The notes beneath the pieces are model-generated. The model saw only the letters and a list, made by a program, of their open reading frames with translations, did not search any database and had not been told where the DNA came from. 64,000 nt of DNA from Saccharospirillaceae bacterium (GTDB taxonomy: Bacteria; Pseudomonadota; Gammaproteobacteria; Pseudomonadales; Oceanobacteraceae), in the NCBI GenBank assembly GCA_022448365.1, contig JAKVCS010000003.1, positions 496,001-560,000 of the forward strand, read 5' to 3'. Each line of letters begins with the position of its first letter. Within the stretch, counting starts at the first letter, position 1. Below are positions 49,573-58,648 of the stretch, piece by piece. The position numbers and the translations under genes were made by a program.

Positions 49573-50784
49573 ATGCGTCGAGTAGTTGTTACAGGTATGG
49601 GCATCGTAGGTTGTCTGGGCAACAATAAAGAAGAAGTCTTGGCTTCACTTCAGGCTCAGCGCTCTGGTATTTCCTTCCAGCCTGAATATCAGGAAATGGG
49701 GTTTCGCAGCCATGTTGCCGGCAAACCGAATATTGACCTTGCGGAACATATTGATCGTAAATTAAAACGCTTCATGGGCGATTCGGCCGCTTACACCTAT
49801 TTGTCGATGAAAGAAGCCATTGAGGACGCAGGTCTGCCCGAAGACGTTGTCAGTCATCCACGTACCGGACTGGTCGCAGGCTCCGGTGGTGCTTCCTCTT
49901 CAGACATTGTTGAGGCCGTTGATATCTTGCGTGAAAAAGGTATCCGGAAAGTGGGCCCTTATCGTGTTACCCGTACCATGGGTTCCACCGCATCAGCAAA
50001 CCTGGCAACTCCGTTCTCAATTAAAGGAGTGAACTACTCCATGACTTCCGCTTGTGCGACCAGTGCACATTGTATTGGCCACGCAATGGAGTTGATTCAA
50101 TGGGGCAAACAAGACGTCGTATTCGCTGGTGGCGGCGAAGAAGAGCACTGGAGCCTGAGTGCACAATTTGACGCAATGAGCGCACTATCCAGTAAATACA
50201 ACGACACGCCGGAACGCGCCTCACGCGCGTATTGCTCCACCCGCGACGGCTTTGTGATTGCCGGCGGCGGCGGCATGCTGGTACTGGAAGAATATGAACA
50301 CGCGATAGCACGCGGTGCGACCATTTACGCCGAATTGGTCGGCTATGGCGCAACGTCCGATGGAGCAGATATGGTTGCTCCCTCAGGTGAAGGAGCGGTG
50401 CGCTGCATGCAAATGGCACTTGAAATGGCTGGCAATCCGGAAATTGATTATCTGAATACTCACGGCACCAGCACCCCGGCCGGTGACATTACAGAACTCA
50501 AAGCGGTTGGCGAAGCATTCGGTGAACAACGTCCAGTCATCAGCTCGACTAAATCATTGACTGGCCACTCTCTCGGTGCTGCCGGTGTACAGGAAGCGAT
50601 CTACAGCTTACTGATGCAACAACATGGCTTTATTACCGGCAGCGCCAACATCGAGGCCCTCGATGAAGGTAGCGAAGGATTTACCATCGTTACTGAAAAC
50701 CGTGAAGCCCGGCTAACCACCGTAATGTCGAACAGCTTTGGGTTTGGTGGTACCAACGCCACCCTGATTTTTAAGGCCATTTGA
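49573..50784 (+). CDS. fabB: beta-ketoacyl-ACP synthase I
   Basis: This is a 403-residue condensing enzyme for fatty acid elongation, needed for unsaturated chains. It opens [22 protein letters not shown]; the active-site Cys is in [16 protein letters not shown], and the two His are in [11 protein letters not shown] and [28 protein letters not shown] closes the protein. Its signature fits FabB rather than FabF, and no fabA is next to it. The ATG at 49573 gives the conserved N-terminus; the 25 residues upstream of it are not conserved. It precedes the large carboxylase gene by 242 bp. Confidence 0.95.
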
Positions 50785-50835: not shown

Positions 50836-51026
50836 AAAATGACATACTCAGGCGCTGTACCAGGCATTAGTTGTTTTCAGGAAGAAACGCTGCTAACACA
50901 CGTCGGCAGCTAACTTTCAGCGGAGCCAACACCGCCCCAGAAAAATGAATGCCAACTCAATATTTATAGTTTTTTTCCGGTCAACCCCGTTTCATCTGAC
51001 TTTGGTTGATCTCGCTTTGGCACAGT

Positions 51027-54000
51027 ATGGATTTAGTTACAATGACAGATAAACAGGCAAACAATTCTCTCGACAATGAACAGGCCCATATTGATCAGTT
51101 GTTTCTGAAAGCAGAACAACTTTCTGCTGACTTTTCTCTTTTCCCGGAGTTTGAAGACAACCCGATCGATCACACAGTAAAAGGTTTAATTGCACCGGAA
51201 CGGTGTGACAACGAACGCGAACGCTTGTCGGGTTTAAACATCGACGATTATATCGAACAGGTTGTTGCACCGAGCGAGAATAATCAGCGCGTGGGTGCCA
51301 AGGCTATTGTTCAGCATCTCATTCTGCGCACGATTACCGAACTTGAAGACGGCCCACTCTATACCTGCGAAGCGGATATGGACTTCAATGGCAAGATTCG
51401 CCGGGTTGGTTTTATTTGTCAGAACCGTGAACACAATAACGGCGTATGGGGTCCGCAGCACCACAATAAGGCAGCAGAACAAGTTCGGGCTTTTGCTCAG
51501 CGTGCGATGCCTATTGTTACATTTATCGATACTCCAGGAGCCGATGCCGGAGAGGCAGCCAATGCAGGTAATCAGGCGCATTCGATTTCTCACCTGATTA
51601 CTGAAATGGCCAATAACGATGTGCCAACGCTCGGTATTATCTGGGGAGCAGGATATTCGGGGGGTGCGATTCCGCTGGCGACAACCAATATTTTACTATC
51701 GGTTCGTGATGGTATCTTCAACACCATCCAACCTCAGGGGCTGGCAAGCATTGCCCGGAAATACAACTTGTCGTGGCAAGAGTGTGCAAAATACGTAGGT
51801 GTGTCCGGATTTGAACTGAAAGAAGCCGGTATCATTGACGGTATCATCGATTACGCACCAAGTGATGCGGATGAAAAACGATACAACCTGCATCAGTCTG
51901 TGGTTACCGGTATTGAATCCATTGAAGCAAGCTCCGCAGAATTTGCCCGCAACAACCCATACCTGATGGATCACTACAAACGCAGTATTGATCGTTTTCT
52001 GGAACCGTCCGATAAATTAGAAAAAGTTCAGCGTGATGCTAATTTTTTCCTGGCGGAGACGCCTACTGAACACCTCAATATTTTTGGTCTGACCTATCGC
52101 TACACGCGCTATCTGACTCTGCGCCGCCGCATCCATGCAACCAGCGTGGAAAACTATGGCCGCCTGGCTGAAAAAGAAATTCCAGAGGGGCAGCTGCAAC
52201 AACGAAATGAGCGTGAAGCTCAACGTAAATTCCAGAACTGGATCCAGGCGCCAGAGAAAATTGTTTACGACGAGTCATTACACAAAAGCTGGAAGACATT
52301 CTGGAGCAAATACGAAGAGCGTGACGAAAGCCGCTCCACCATTGCTCGTCTGTTCTTCGGAGAGCCAAAAGATAATTATCTAAAAGCCAAACAGGACCTC
52401 TGTTTTAATCTGGGTCTGTATTTGTTTAATCGCTGGAAAGCCGACGCTCCGGTTAACTTTCAGGGATTGCTGAATTACCTTGAGGATTACAAACAAAGCC
52501 GCTTTATGTTGCGTGCTAACGATATTCTCGATACCGACGCTGTAGCTGATTTTGTCGAAAATAATCCACACCCACTGGCGGCTTATATTCGTGAGATATT
52601 GCCCCACGAGACTCGTCAGGACCTGACGACTGAAATGGCTGGCGAACAAGCAAAAGGGGCTCTGAAGCAATCGATTGCCAGCGCCCTGAATACCGTACTG
52701 CAGCACCAACTGATTCCGGAAGACGTGCGTGACGAGCTGAAATTATCAACCCGAACCGAAGCCATCGCTAACAGTGCGGCGGTTGCCAAAGTTGAAGCTA
52801 ACCGCCGTATTCTTGAAGAAGCACTCGCTCCTTACATTCAATTCCGTCAGGAAAACATCCAGAACCCTGCGCACCCTGACATCACCATTCTGGATGCCAT
52901 TCTGCATGAAGAATTGCGCTACGAATTCAGTCAGGTTTGCCAGAACATGCTGGTTTTCGGTCAGTTGTACGATAACTTCATCTACAACCTGGTGAACGTC
53001 GCGAAAGAAGCCAATGAAACCCGAGCACTCTCCAGTGATGCCGTGAAAGAATTGCTGGATAAATCACTGGCGGAAGCCACGTCCGGTGATAGCTACACCC
53101 CGCAGGAGCGAGAATCTTTTAACCACTGGTTAAGCTATTTCATCAAGAGTTCAGCCCGCGTGGACTTTCTCAAATCAGTGGAAGAGTGGAAGAAACTGGC
53201 GTTTCCTCGCCTGTCGGACACCTTATTTGTTGTGATCACCTTTATTTTTGAGAAACTGTTGGCTGAGTATCATGAAGCCGAGCAGGAAGGTAAGAACTAC
53301 AACGGCCGGATAAATCCGGTTTCCATCGGTCGTCGTAAAGATTTCTGGAACCGTTTGACCATGGGCTACCACGATCTGCTCATTCAACAGGTTCTGGATG
53401 ACACGAAGCGTCAGAAGAAAACCAGCCCAGCGGCATTAATCGAACGTTTCTTCGCAGACTTTGATGAGATAAACGGATCTCTGATGTCTGCAGATCCGGT
53501 CTCATTCCCGGGCTTTCGCAGCTCTATCGAAGGGGCTCTAAACAAAGACGAAAAACCGTGTGGCGTATTAACCGGTATTGGTACCATCAAGATTGGTGAT
53601 CGTCAGCAGCGTGTTGGTGCACTGGTATCCAACCTGAACTTCCAGGCTGGTGCATTTGATATGGCCAGTGCTGAAAAGTTCTGCAAATTGATGGTCGAGT
53701 GTGCCCGGCAGCAGTTGCCAATCGTGTGCTTTGTATCGTCCGGTGGGATGCAGACCAAGGAAGGGGCAGCCGCACTATTCTCCATGGCCATCGTTAACGA
53801 CCGCATTACCCGCTTTGTTCGTGACAACGACCTGCCCTTGGTGATCTTTGGTTTTGGCGATTGTACCGGTGGTGCGCAGGCATCGTTCGTGACCCACCCA
53901 CTGGCACAAACTTATTATTTTTCCGGCACCAATATGCCATTCGCGGGTCAGATTGTTGTGCCAAGCTACCTGCCCAGCACGTGCACCCTGTCGAACTACC

Positions 54001-55961
54001 TGTCAGTTTCGCCGGAATCAATGGATGGCCTGGTGCAACATCCGTTCTTCGATGATCTTGATAGCCGCTTGCGTGCGATTGACCCGGATATGCCAACCGC
54101 TCGCCACACGGTTGATGATGTTCTGGATCGTGTACTGCAGGGTTATGTCACTGCAGAGCGCTTTGCACCGGACACAGGGGATGCGACCAACGAAAGTAAA
54201 AAATATGGCAACATCGACAAAGTTCTGGTTCATGCCCGTGGCTGTACCGCCGTCAAACTGATCCGTAAAGCCCAGGAGAACGACATTAAAGTGGTTCTGG
54301 TGCAATCAGACCCGGACATGAATTCGGTCCCAGTGGATATGTTAGGACCAGAAGATCGTGTGGTGTGTATCGGTGGTAACACACCAGATGAGTCGTATCT
54401 GAACGCCAAATCCGTGCTGCGCGTCGCACATCATGAGGGGATTGACGCTTTGCACCCAGGTATCGGATTCCTGTCAGAGAGCAGTCAGTTCGCGGCTCTG
54501 TGTGGTAACCACGATATTAACTTTGTTGGACCACCGGTTTCATCCATGGAAACCATGGGCAATAAATCAAACGCCATTAACACCGCCATGCGTGTTGAGG
54601 TCCCGGTAGTCCCAGGCTCTCACGGTATTCTGACCAGCTCAGCCAATGCCGCCAGTGTGGCTGATGAGATTGGTTATCCGGTGCTGTTAAAAGCTGTACA
54701 CGGTGGTGGTGGTAAGGGTATTCAGGTGGTGGAATCGCCGAATAAGATTCACAGCTTGTTCCATCAGATTTCGACCGAGGCCAAAGCTGCTTTCGGTAAC
54801 GGAGACGTATACCTGGAAAAATACGTCACATCATTGCGCCATATCGAAGTGCAGGTTTTACGTGACAGCCATGGCAACACTAAGATTCTGGGACTTCGTG
54901 ACTGCTCGGTTCAACGCAATAACCAGAAGATTTTCGAGGAATCCGCCTCGACCATGCTACCGCGGGAACTGGAGCAAGGTGCATACGACTTTGCCGCCAA
55001 ACTGGCTGATGCCGTGAACTACGTCGGTGCTGGTACGGTTGAATTTATCTTCGATCTCGACAATAACACCATCTACTTTATGGAGATGAACACGCGTCTT
55101 CAGGTTGAACATCCGGTAACAGAACTGGTGTCGGGTATTGATATCGTCAGCACCCAGTTCAAGATCGCTCAGGGCGAAGCCATCACCGATCTGAAGCCAG
55201 TTGCTAATGGCTATGCTATCGAAGTGCGCGTCAATGCTGAAAAAGCAGTCCGCAAGGGTGATGATGTCGAATTTGTACCGACACCTGGCCGCATTCGTGA
55301 CTGTGTGTTGCCGGATGAAGACCACATAGAGCTGATCTCAATGGCGGCTCCCGGTAAGCAGGTATCGCCATTCTATGACAGCATGGTGACTCAAATTATC
55401 TGTTACGGTAAAGATCGTAACGACACGATTACCAAGTTGCGCGACTACCTTGAACGGGTGCGGATAACCGGCGTGTGCACCAATATTCCGCTGCTGAAAC
55501 GCGTTCTTGATGACGATGTCTTCCAGAAGGGAATCTACGACACAACCTATCTCCCGAAATTCCTCGATCGCATGGACGTGGATGCATTGATTCACGATAT
55601 TGAAGAGGCCGCCGATTTATCAGCCGATGCCGTTGATGCCTCTGCGCTGGCGATTGAGGGCTCTGATGAGCTTAAAGTACTTTCGCCAAGTACCAGTATC
55701 TTCTATGGCTCGGCGTCGCCGACGGAACCGCCGTTTGTCAAAGAAGGCGATATTATCAGCATCGATCAGACCCTGTGTTTGATGGAAGCAATGAAAATGT
55801 TCACCCCGCTTAACCTGAAACAGTTCAACCGTACTGAGTCCGAACTCTACCCAGTGAAACAGCAGTTTAAGGTTACCCGAATTATGAACTCGGATGGTCA
55901 ACAGGTGAACCAGGGCGATCTGCTTTATGTGGTCAAACCGCTAGACCCAGAACCGGCCTGA
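51027..55961 (+). CDS. single-chain biotin-dependent acyl-CoA carboxylase (CT-alpha, CT-beta, BC, BCCP)
   Basis: This 1644-residue protein joins all parts of an acetyl-CoA-carboxylase-type enzyme. Residues about 70-310 are AccA-like (VTFIDTPGADAGEAAN at 165-180; GAGYSGGAIPLA). Residues about 345-840 are helical and match nothing known to me. About 846-1050 are AccD-like (GVLTGIGTIKIGDRQ; SSGGMQTKEGAAALF from 904) without the AccD zinc finger. About 1060-1515 are biotin carboxylase (GGGGKG at 1226-1231; EMNTRLQVEHP at 1353-1363). The C-terminus has the biotinyl Lys1590 in EAMKM. All catalytic motifs are intact. The first ATG is at 51027; a second in-frame ATG at 51042 is also plausible. It is followed by a strong terminator. 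Confidence 0.9.
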   Translation: MDLVTMTDKQANNSLDNEQAHIDQLFLKAEQLSADFSLFPEFEDNPIDHTVKGLIAPERCDNERERLSGLNIDDYIEQVVAPSENNQRVGAKAIVQHLILRTITELEDGPLYTCEADMDFNGKIRRVGFICQNREHNNGVWGPQHHNKAAEQVRAFAQRAMPIVTFIDTPGADAGEAANAGNQAHSISHLITEMANNDVPTLGIIWGAGYSGGAIPLATTNILLSVRDGIFNTIQPQGLASIARKYNLSWQECAKYVGVSGFELKEAGIIDGIIDYAPSDADEKRYNLHQSVVTGIESIEASSAEFARNNPYLMDHYKRSIDRFLEPSDKLEKVQRDANFFLAETPTEHLNIFGLTYRYTRYLTLRRRIHATSVENYGRLAEKEIPEGQLQQRNEREAQRKFQNWIQAPEKIVYDESLHKSWKTFWSKYEERDESRSTIARLFFGEPKDNYLKAKQDLCFNLGLYLFNRWKADAPVNFQGLLNYLEDYKQSRFMLRANDILDTDAVADFVENNPHPLAAYIREILPHETRQDLTTEMAGEQAKGALKQSIASALNTVLQHQLIPEDVRDELKLSTRTEAIANSAAVAKVEANRRILEEALAPYIQFRQENIQNPAHPDITILDAILHEELRYEFSQVCQNMLVFGQLYDNFIYNLVNVAKEANETRALSSDAVKELLDKSLAEATSGDSYTPQERESFNHWLSYFIKSSARVDFLKSVEEWKKLAFPRLSDTLFVVITFIFEKLLAEYHEAEQEGKNYNGRINPVSIGRRKDFWNRLTMGYHDLLIQQVLDDTKRQKKTSPAALIERFFADFDEINGSLMSADPVSFPGFRSSIEGALNKDEKPCGVLTGIGTIKIGDRQQRVGALVSNLNFQAGAFDMASAEKFCKLMVECARQQLPIVCFVSSGGMQTKEGAAALFSMAIVNDRITRFVRDNDLPLVIFGFGDCTGGAQASFVTHPLAQTYYFSGTNMPFAGQIVVPSYLPSTCTLSNYLSVSPESMDGLVQHPFFDDLDSRLRAIDPDMPTARHTVDDVLDRVLQGYVTAERFAPDTGDATNESKKYGNIDKVLVHARGCTAVKLIRKAQENDIKVVLVQSDPDMNSVPVDMLGPEDRVVCIGGNTPDESYLNAKSVLRVAHHEGIDALHPGIGFLSESSQFAALCGNHDINFVGPPVSSMETMGNKSNAINTAMRVEVPVVPGSHGILTSSANAASVADEIGYPVLLKAVHGGGGKGIQVVESPNKIHSLFHQISTEAKAAFGNGDVYLEKYVTSLRHIEVQVLRDSHGNTKILGLRDCSVQRNNQKIFEESASTMLPRELEQGAYDFAAKLADAVNYVGAGTVEFIFDLDNNTIYFMEMNTRLQVEHPVTELVSGIDIVSTQFKIAQGEAITDLKPVANGYAIEVRVNAEKAVRKGDDVEFVPTPGRIRDCVLPDEDHIELISMAAPGKQVSPFYDSMVTQIICYGKDRNDTITKLRDYLERVRITGVCTNIPLLKRVLDDDVFQKGIYDTTYLPKFLDRMDVDALIHDIEEAADLSADAVDASALAIEGSDELKVLSPSTSIFYGSASPTEPPFVKEGDIISIDQTLCLMEAMKMFTPLNLKQFNRTESELYPVKQQFKVTRIMNSDGQQVNQGDLLYVVKPLDPEPA

Positions 55962-56863: not shown

Positions 56864-58648
56864 TTGCTGTTTGGGATAACCGCTTTGAATAGCCTGTCTG
56901 AGTCTAAAAAAAATAACCGCCGTCACGTCGGAATCACACTGCTGTCTTATCTGCTGACGTTCAGCTTTATTATTACCCTGGCTACGTCCGGCTTTATCCT
57001 GCTGAGTGACTATCATCGCGGTGTCAGTGAATATGAGACCAATGGTCAGCAAATTCAGAACAGCTATCAGCAAAGTATCAGTTACAGTTTATGGAATTTC
57101 GATACCCGCCAGATCGAGTCTCAAATGGCAGGTATTCTTAACTTTCCTGGTGTCGTGTATGTCTACATTGAAACAGACAATGATCTGATACACAGCGCCG
57201 GGGATGTATTAAGCCGCACGGACCAGCGCCATTCATTTCCACTGATTTTTCAGAATCCGGGAAAAGAATATAACCTCGGCAATCTGCATATCGATATCAA
57301 CTACGCGGACCTGTATGACGAGTTACAGGACAAAGCCGTCCAGATTCTGTTAACACAGTTCGTTAAAACCTTTTCCGTATCGATTTTCGTGCTAGCCATT
57401 GTCCGGGCCTTGATTACCCAACGACTGCGGATTATGTCAAATTGGGCCAGTCACTTCTCTCTGGACAATCTTGAATCAGCACTGGTGCTGAATAGCCGCT
57501 CGGAAAAACAAGACGAATTGGACCTGGTTGCGGCTGCTATTAATAAAATGCGTAACACTTTAAAAGCCGATATCGTCGAGCGTGAAAAAAGTAAAGCGCA
57601 ACTTGAGGAAACAAAAGAACAGCTGTCCATCGCCGTGGACAACGCCGCACTCGGATTGTGCCAATACAATAGCCAGACCGACAAAATAAGCTGTAACCAT
57701 CACTTCGCCCAACTGCTTGGCAGCAACCAGAAGGAACTGGAAGCCAGCGAACATCCGATGGAAAGATTCCGCGAGCTGTTTCATGGTGAACAAAATGTTG
57801 AACTCAGAGAGCGTTTCAATCAGCTGCTGTTTGGCCGCGTCAACCGTATGCAAACCTGCATTCAGGTAATTAATCTGAATCATGAAGAGAAGTTTCTTGA
57901 TACCACCATTCAGGTGATCTCTTACCACGAAAGTCGTCCGCTGGATATTTTGCTGTGTCTTGTGGATAAGACCAAAGAGCAAATTGCCACCCGTAAGTCT
58001 CAAGAATTGGCCGTCAACCTGGAAAACAAAGTCACAAAACGCACCGAAGAACTTTACGAAGAGCAACAGCGAGCCAAAGCCAATATTCAGAAACTGACTG
58101 GCCAGCTGGAACGCTTCCAGCAAAGTCAGATTAACCAGCTGAACACCCGGTTTAATATTTTATTGCTGGAATATCTGAAGACCAAAAATCACAAAATGCT
58201 TGATCTGCTGGGCCAGTATCTGGATCTTGAAATCAACCAACCTTCACGCAGTCTTGATCTGAGTTCGATGATCACGGAATGGCTGCAGCAACATCAGCAA
58301 TTACACCATGTGAGCATTAACCAGGATTTCCCCCTAACGCTGATACTGGAAGAAAACGATAAACTGATTGCGTTTTTACTGCACTGTTTGATCCTGCAGG
58401 AGCCATTATTAGACATTACAGATGCATTAGCCCTACGTCTGACCCTGAAGGGAGACCACGCCTATCTTGCAATGAAGTTCACAACCAGAGACAGCCTGAA
58501 GAATGAAGACGGGTCTTTGCCGGAAGCATGGCTGCTGTGTGACTACATAGTCAGTAGCCAACTTCAGGGAGAATTGACCCGCCAGATACACGCCAACGAG
58601 CTATTGATTGACTTCAGTTTCTCCCTGAACCGCAGTCATGATCGCTAA
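56864..58648 (+). CDS. membrane sensor-like protein without a recognisable kinase active site
   Basis: This is a 594-residue protein. TM1 is at about 23-47, a periplasmic sensor domain at about 48-160, and TM2 at about 161-183. A HAMP-like linker, a PAS-like domain (about 255-375) and a coiled-coil (about 378-430; VTKRTEELYEEQQRAKANIQ) follow. The C-terminal about 160 residues look like a reduced histidine kinase: there is no clear phospho-acceptor His box, and G boxes are absent. It is a signalling protein, but output is unclear. No ATG is near the start; TTG at 56864 or 56885 is likely. It ends overlapping pdxH by 4 bp, convergent. Confidence 0.7.
   Translation: MLFGITALNSLSESKKNNRRHVGITLLSYLLTFSFIITLATSGFILLSDYHRGVSEYETNGQQIQNSYQQSISYSLWNFDTRQIESQMAGILNFPGVVYVYIETDNDLIHSAGDVLSRTDQRHSFPLIFQNPGKEYNLGNLHIDINYADLYDELQDKAVQILLTQFVKTFSVSIFVLAIVRALITQRLRIMSNWASHFSLDNLESALVLNSRSEKQDELDLVAAAINKMRNTLKADIVEREKSKAQLEETKEQLSIAVDNAALGLCQYNSQTDKISCNHHFAQLLGSNQKELEASEHPMERFRELFHGEQNVELRERFNQLLFGRVNRMQTCIQVINLNHEEKFLDTTIQVISYHESRPLDILLCLVDKTKEQIATRKSQELAVNLENKVTKRTEELYEEQQRAKANIQKLTGQLERFQQSQINQLNTRFNILLLEYLKTKNHKMLDLLGQYLDLEINQPSRSLDLSSMITEWLQQHQQLHHVSINQDFPLTLILEENDKLIAFLLHCLILQEPLLDITDALALRLTLKGDHAYLAMKFTTRDSLKNEDGSLPEAWLLCDYIVSSQLQGELTRQIHANELLIDFSFSLNRSHDR

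Follow-up and report, generated by a model that had tools for sequence, protein, structure and literature searches.

The 64,000-nucleotide stretch of DNA analysed here (the window) carries a gene that is, with high probability, accS of a Thalassolituus-type marine gammaproteobacterium, encoding a one-polypeptide acetyl-CoA carboxylase (ACC) that takes over from AccA, AccB, AccC and AccD and provides the malonyl-CoA needed by type II fatty-acid synthesis. The absence of these four proteins from the source genome was observed directly, and AccS is predicted to replace them functionally, most likely producing malonyl-CoA as the only acetyl-CoA carboxylase of the cell. ACC, a target for antibacterials, supplies fatty-acid synthesis with its committed precursor, and an entire family of marine bacteria that includes many oil degraders apparently relies on a single-chain form with a domain order unlike that of eukaryotes.

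Domain organization and identity of the window protein

An uninterrupted frame of 1651 codons was found at 51006-55961 on the forward strand, with a TTG at 51006 as its mechanical start. Counted from the ATG at 51027 it encodes 1644 residues, and the ATG at 51042 agrees better than that at 51027 with the start in the nearest relative. The gene, its upstream neighbor and its domains are as follows (residues numbered in the 51006 frame):

49573..50784, + strand (mechanical frame from 49498): fabB, beta-ketoacyl-ACP synthase I (NCBIfam PRK07967, 683 bits, over the cut-off)
51027..55961, + strand (start 51027 or 51042): accS, single-chain acetyl-CoA carboxylase (AccA-middle-AccD-BC-BCCP)
51420..51911, + strand: carboxyltransferase (CT) alpha-like (AccA) domain, residues 139-302 (Pfam ACCA, 7e-28)
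51912..53450, + strand: all-helical middle region without named domain, residues ~303-815 (AlphaFold2 model, moderate confidence; counterpart in 9kkm)
52476..52880, + strand: long-form segment, residues 491-625, 135 aa (from segment lengths in ~90 homologues)
53451..54155, + strand: CT beta-like (AccD) domain without zinc finger, residues ~816-1050 (accD match, Pfam/NCBIfam, at 818-962)
54213..55565, + strand: biotin carboxylase (BC) domain, residues 1070-1520 (Pfam/NCBIfam)
55668..55937, + strand: biotin carboxyl carrier domain, residues 1555-1644 (Pfam/NCBIfam biotinyl match at ~1543-1644)
55794-55796, + strand: codon of the biotin acceptor K1597 of the carrier domain

A preliminary description of this DNA had proposed a single 1644-residue chain that begins with the CT, its AccA-like half ahead of the AccD-like one, and continues with biotin carboxylase and biotinyl domains, a layout unlike that of eukaryotic ACC; the frame and the placement of domains with Pfam and NCBIfam bear out both points. 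In profile searches the AccA half matched S. aureus AccA (2f9i_A) at 7e-24 and the AccD half S. aureus AccD at 6e-13, and for both halves the bacterial AccA and AccD scored above fused PCC-type CTs.

The motifs IDTPG, SSGGMQTKEG, GGGGKG, EMNTRLQVEHP and EAMKM were all found in the protein. Comparison of the BC domain with AccC of E. coli MG1655 at residues generally assigned to the active site revealed identity at 13 of 14 positions (K116, K159, H209, E211, K238, E276, E288, N290, R292, Q294, V295, E296 and R338), the sole change being H236 to N. In addition, 423 positions, among them the biotin acceptor K1597, are invariant among 18 diverse AccS members. With these motifs and residues kept and the frame free of stops, the earlier view that the gene is not a decaying copy holds. 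The AccD zinc finger had been described as missing, and a search of the whole protein for a CxxC pattern found none, so the zinc ribbon has indeed been lost.

The window protein matched the Shewanella oneidensis AccADCB (1517 aa) of PDB entries 9kkm and 9w4a, titled 'Acetyl-CoA carboxylase multifunctional enzyme AccADCB', with 1881 bits over residues 29-498 and 623-1647. An AlphaFold2 model of its CT part, of moderate confidence (pLDDT 68, pTM 0.53), had 9kkm as by far its best fold match (TMq 0.73). The latter entry, released on 2025-11-19 and described as 'acetyl-CoA carboxyltransferase holoenzyme dimer from Shewanella oneidensis', is of the mutant E1238A; this residue corresponds to E1368 of the window protein and to E296 of E. 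coli AccC in an alignment made via Shewanella sp. ANA-3, whose protein is one residue longer. The window protein is a member of the AccS (AccADCB) family, that of S. oneidensis SO_0840, to which it corresponds along its entire length except for one segment.

SO_0840 is named AccS in a published list (PMC4793157). It is a biotinylated protein of ~170 kDa with a domain order unlike that of eukaryotic ACC, and it is activated by the LysR-type AccR; in vivo evidence for it as the acetyl-CoA carboxylase of the cell comes from an accR mutant that has little AccS, whose growth either accS or E. coli accA, accD and accBC restored (PMC11602165). The hint of novelty in the preliminary description was consequently not sustained, the architecture being already described and solved by cryo-EM (PDB 9kkm, 9w4a) and the family having acetyl-CoA as its assigned substrate (PMC4793157, PMC11602165; PDB 9kkm). 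What is new is the universal presence of AccS in the Thalassolituus/Oceanobacter/Oleispira/Bermanella family, with stand-alone AccA and zinc-ribbon AccD missing from all but one of its genomes, the long-form segment, the upstream fabB and the carriers labelled outside Gammaproteobacteria.

The Shewanella and window proteins share domain order, catalytic residues, lack of a zinc finger and, as predicted for the latter, the role as acetyl-CoA carboxylase; where the alignment is best, the window protein is ~57-61% identical to Shewanella members. On the other hand, Shewanella AccS is without ~115 residues that the window protein carries in its helical middle, and its gene has a divergent lysR-type accR upstream, whereas no divergent accR lies 5' of the window gene, where fabB is found on the same strand. 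Every domain of the window protein is of the bacterial ACC type known from the four-subunit E. coli enzyme, and its BC is 40% identical to E. coli AccC with the active-site residues kept; the E. coli enzyme, however, consists of four chains, whereas AccS is a single one that has lost the AccD zinc ribbon and has a long helical stretch separating alpha from beta. Eukaryotic ACC is likewise single-chain and multidomain, but it is arranged as BC-BCCP-central-CT with the beta-like half first. The bacterial single-chain long-chain acyl-CoA carboxylase (LCC) has the order BC-BT-BCCP-CT and a PCC-like CT, and its structure 4rcn gave a marginal match to AccS (E 0.009) in the profile search. Another bacterial single-chain carboxylase is the multidomain ACC of Saccharopolyspora (PMC6491548).

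AccS as the probable acetyl-CoA carboxylase of the source genome

The preliminary description had suggested checking the genome for accA, accBC and accD. Searches of the 99.92% complete genome with AccA-family, CT, biotinyl, zinc-ribbon and accC queries found no stand-alone accA, accD, accB or accC, and a hidden canonical ACC was rejected on these grounds. Full-length beta subunits aside, AccA-type matches were confined to the accS frame, and a zinc-ribbon AccD was not found. BC domains of accC strength occur only in accS and in two frames of 672-688 codons, the remaining CTs are beta subunits of 544-571 codons, and the biotinyl/lipoyl match in a 140-codon frame belongs to GcvH, adjoining gcvT (gene names read from sequence). 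Three other carboxylases are carried by the genome: one PCC-type, whose pair adjoins methylmalonyl-CoA mutase and a MeaB-type GTPase, and two MCC/GCC-type, both of whose pairs adjoin an acyl-CoA dehydrogenase and one also a crotonase.

From the conserved residues, the BC domain of AccS would carboxylate the biotin attached to K1597 in the C-terminal carrier domain, drawing on ATP and bicarbonate. The carboxylated carrier would then swing over to the carboxyltransferase that the AccA-like and AccD-like halves build together, and acetyl-CoA would there be converted to malonyl-CoA. The helical middle would hold these two halves and probably aids dimer formation, as in the Shewanella enzyme. The malonyl-CoA produced would feed type II fatty-acid synthesis.

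The role in fatty-acid or other acyl-CoA carboxylation that had been considered likely is supported, with fatty-acid synthesis as the best reading, by the lack of stand-alone acc genes and by the Shewanella homologue being an acetyl-CoA carboxylase. The CT sequence may nevertheless be compatible with a broader acyl-CoA range, and changes of substrate are frequent among biotin-dependent carboxylases, a point in favor of an enzyme that, like the mycobacterial single-chain LCC, has another substrate, whether propionyl-CoA or a longer acyl-CoA. We consider this improbable: the CT halves are closer to bacterial AccA and AccD (E values above) than to PCC beta subunits, the genome already has PCC-type and two MCC/GCC-type enzymes and offers no other candidate for making malonyl-CoA, and E. 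coli ACC compensates for lowered expression of the Shewanella homologue (PMC11602165).

Even less probable is that AccS is a secondary, dispensable carboxylase next to a four-subunit ACC missed in the assembly. A divergent AccS-like gene and a stand-alone AccA do occur together in one genome (G028), and another (G202) has both, but at the completeness reached here accA, accD and accBC, which in E. coli lie at three separate sites, would all need to have been missed, and the same absence was found in 21 relatives, several of them single-contig. The collection of homologues of equal domain order, also suggested in the preliminary description, yielded ~90 other loci with full-length frames, and since these include single-contig chromosomes with the same frame and order, the window frame is not an assembly join. 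That origin, or a pseudogene fusion of separate acc genes, was given a negligible probability, in keeping also with the 423 invariant residues over 18 members and the lack of stops. AccS as the malonyl-CoA-forming enzyme of the cell remains the reading we strongly favor.

Distribution of AccS among bacteria

The family of the source comprises, by its named matches, Thalassolituus, Oceanobacter, Bacterioplanes, Oleispira and Bermanella. An AccS frame of 1625-1685 codons was present in all 23 genomes of this family, and in 22 of them stand-alone AccA and zinc-ribbon AccD were absent; both proteins were found in each of the 13 sampled genomes of the other families of the order. The exception within the family (G021) has AccS plus AccA, AccD and AccC, a double set that possibly arises from contamination because this genome is a fragmented MAG. 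AccS thus appears to have replaced the four-subunit ACC throughout the Thalassolituus/Oceanobacter/Oleispira/Bermanella family, a natural and clean replacement of that enzyme.

A class-wide scan with an AccA-family query and a CT query detected AccS in five of 368 other genomes, belonging to three families, and one sampled genome, G202, has both AccS and stand-alone AccA. Among named records, AccS was the sole AccA-type match at E <= 1e-12 in all 15 AccS genomes checked, including Shewanella and Psychromonas. Some phage records, all unannotated, gave weak matches as well (26-29% identity); these matches look like host AccD genes and were set aside. Among the AccA-family matches listed, one full AccA match (G181:C101:7625-8551) lies inside an open frame of 1376 codons, possibly AccA joined to an adjacent dnaE frame, or merely a long open frame.

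Full-length AccS was also found in MAGs that bear the labels Planctomycetota, Verrucomicrobiota and Lentisphaerota (loci L100, of 19299 bases, L097, L123 and L139), where again nothing else of AccA type matched at E <= 1e-12. In the genome with L100 the 16S, which is on a different contig from accS, is only ~70% identical to that of E. coli over the aligned 69%, and therefore the bin is not gammaproteobacterial. In addition, the conjugative plasmid pOXA436 (NZ_KY863418.1, L060) carries a partial, unannotated accS, ~54% identical to the window protein within residues 23-1044, that adjoins lysR and blaOXA-436. As lysR and acc are the neighbors of blaOXA-48-like genes on the Shewanella chromosome (PMC3480492), this fits a capture of the blaOXA-48-like gene from such a chromosome.

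Long and short forms and gene context of accS

Among ~90 homologues, residues 491-625 correspond to the sole segment of varying length, the others being nearly constant, and its counterpart has either 112-140 aa (long form) or 15-22 aa (short form). The long form was found in the Thalassolituus/Oceanobacter/Oleispira/Bermanella family, in family f23, in many Pseudomonadales MAGs and in one Planctomycetota-labelled MAG, and the short form in Shewanella, Motilimonas, Psychromonas, families f159 and f176, and the Verrucomicrobiota- and Lentisphaerota-labelled MAGs. The long-form segment is helical in the AlphaFold2 model and is the fastest-evolving part of the protein, with 15-24% identity to distant members vs 60-73% in AccD and BC. 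Searches with it gave no real match in PDB (best E 0.42) and no relative in Pfam, and the solved Shewanella structure is without a counterpart.

A quick tree of AccS, built with this segment left out and showing long branches at L054 and L055, needs four changes between the two forms, and we infer that the long form is the ancestral state. A wider proposal, to which we give slightly less than even chances, regards AccS as an older, mobile type of ACC that took over from the four-subunit enzyme in whole families and is at work in Planctomycetota, Verrucomicrobiota and Lentisphaerota as well. In this proposal the ancestral protein was of the long form, and several losses removed its fast-evolving helical module of ~115 residues, which may serve in regulation or assembly and is missing from the sole structure solved. 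The existence of both forms, with the Shewanella structure as reference, offers a direct test of the role of the extra helical segment.

The position of accS downstream of fabB had been noted previously and is confirmed by the NCBIfam match of the latter, which lies directly 5' on the same strand. Most loci of the source's family have the two genes side by side, several Bermanella-type genomes being exceptions. Further along the window, at 56864-58648, a 594-aa protein was found in which Pfam (E <= 0.001) recognised no kinase or cyclase output domain and which has a CHASE5 periplasmic sensor domain.

Elsewhere, a LysR-type gene is divergent from accS in Shewanella, Motilimonas and 005FR1 (loci L116, L091 and L102, read by eye), and in several Pseudomonadales-type MAGs (L098:3431-5275, L132:3443-5302 and similar loci) the divergent gene encodes a ketoacyl synthase of ~613-620 aa, a length reminiscent of FabY of Pseudomonas. 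Most accS contexts across lineages point to fatty-acid synthesis. In G028 (L054:4695-12610) fabA-like, fabB and fabV-like genes (fabA and fabV read by eye) are followed by the AccS-like gene, whose product of 1521 aa is very divergent in sequence; this genome also keeps stand-alone AccA, AccD and AccC, and the run is possibly a second, self-contained module for fatty-acid synthesis.
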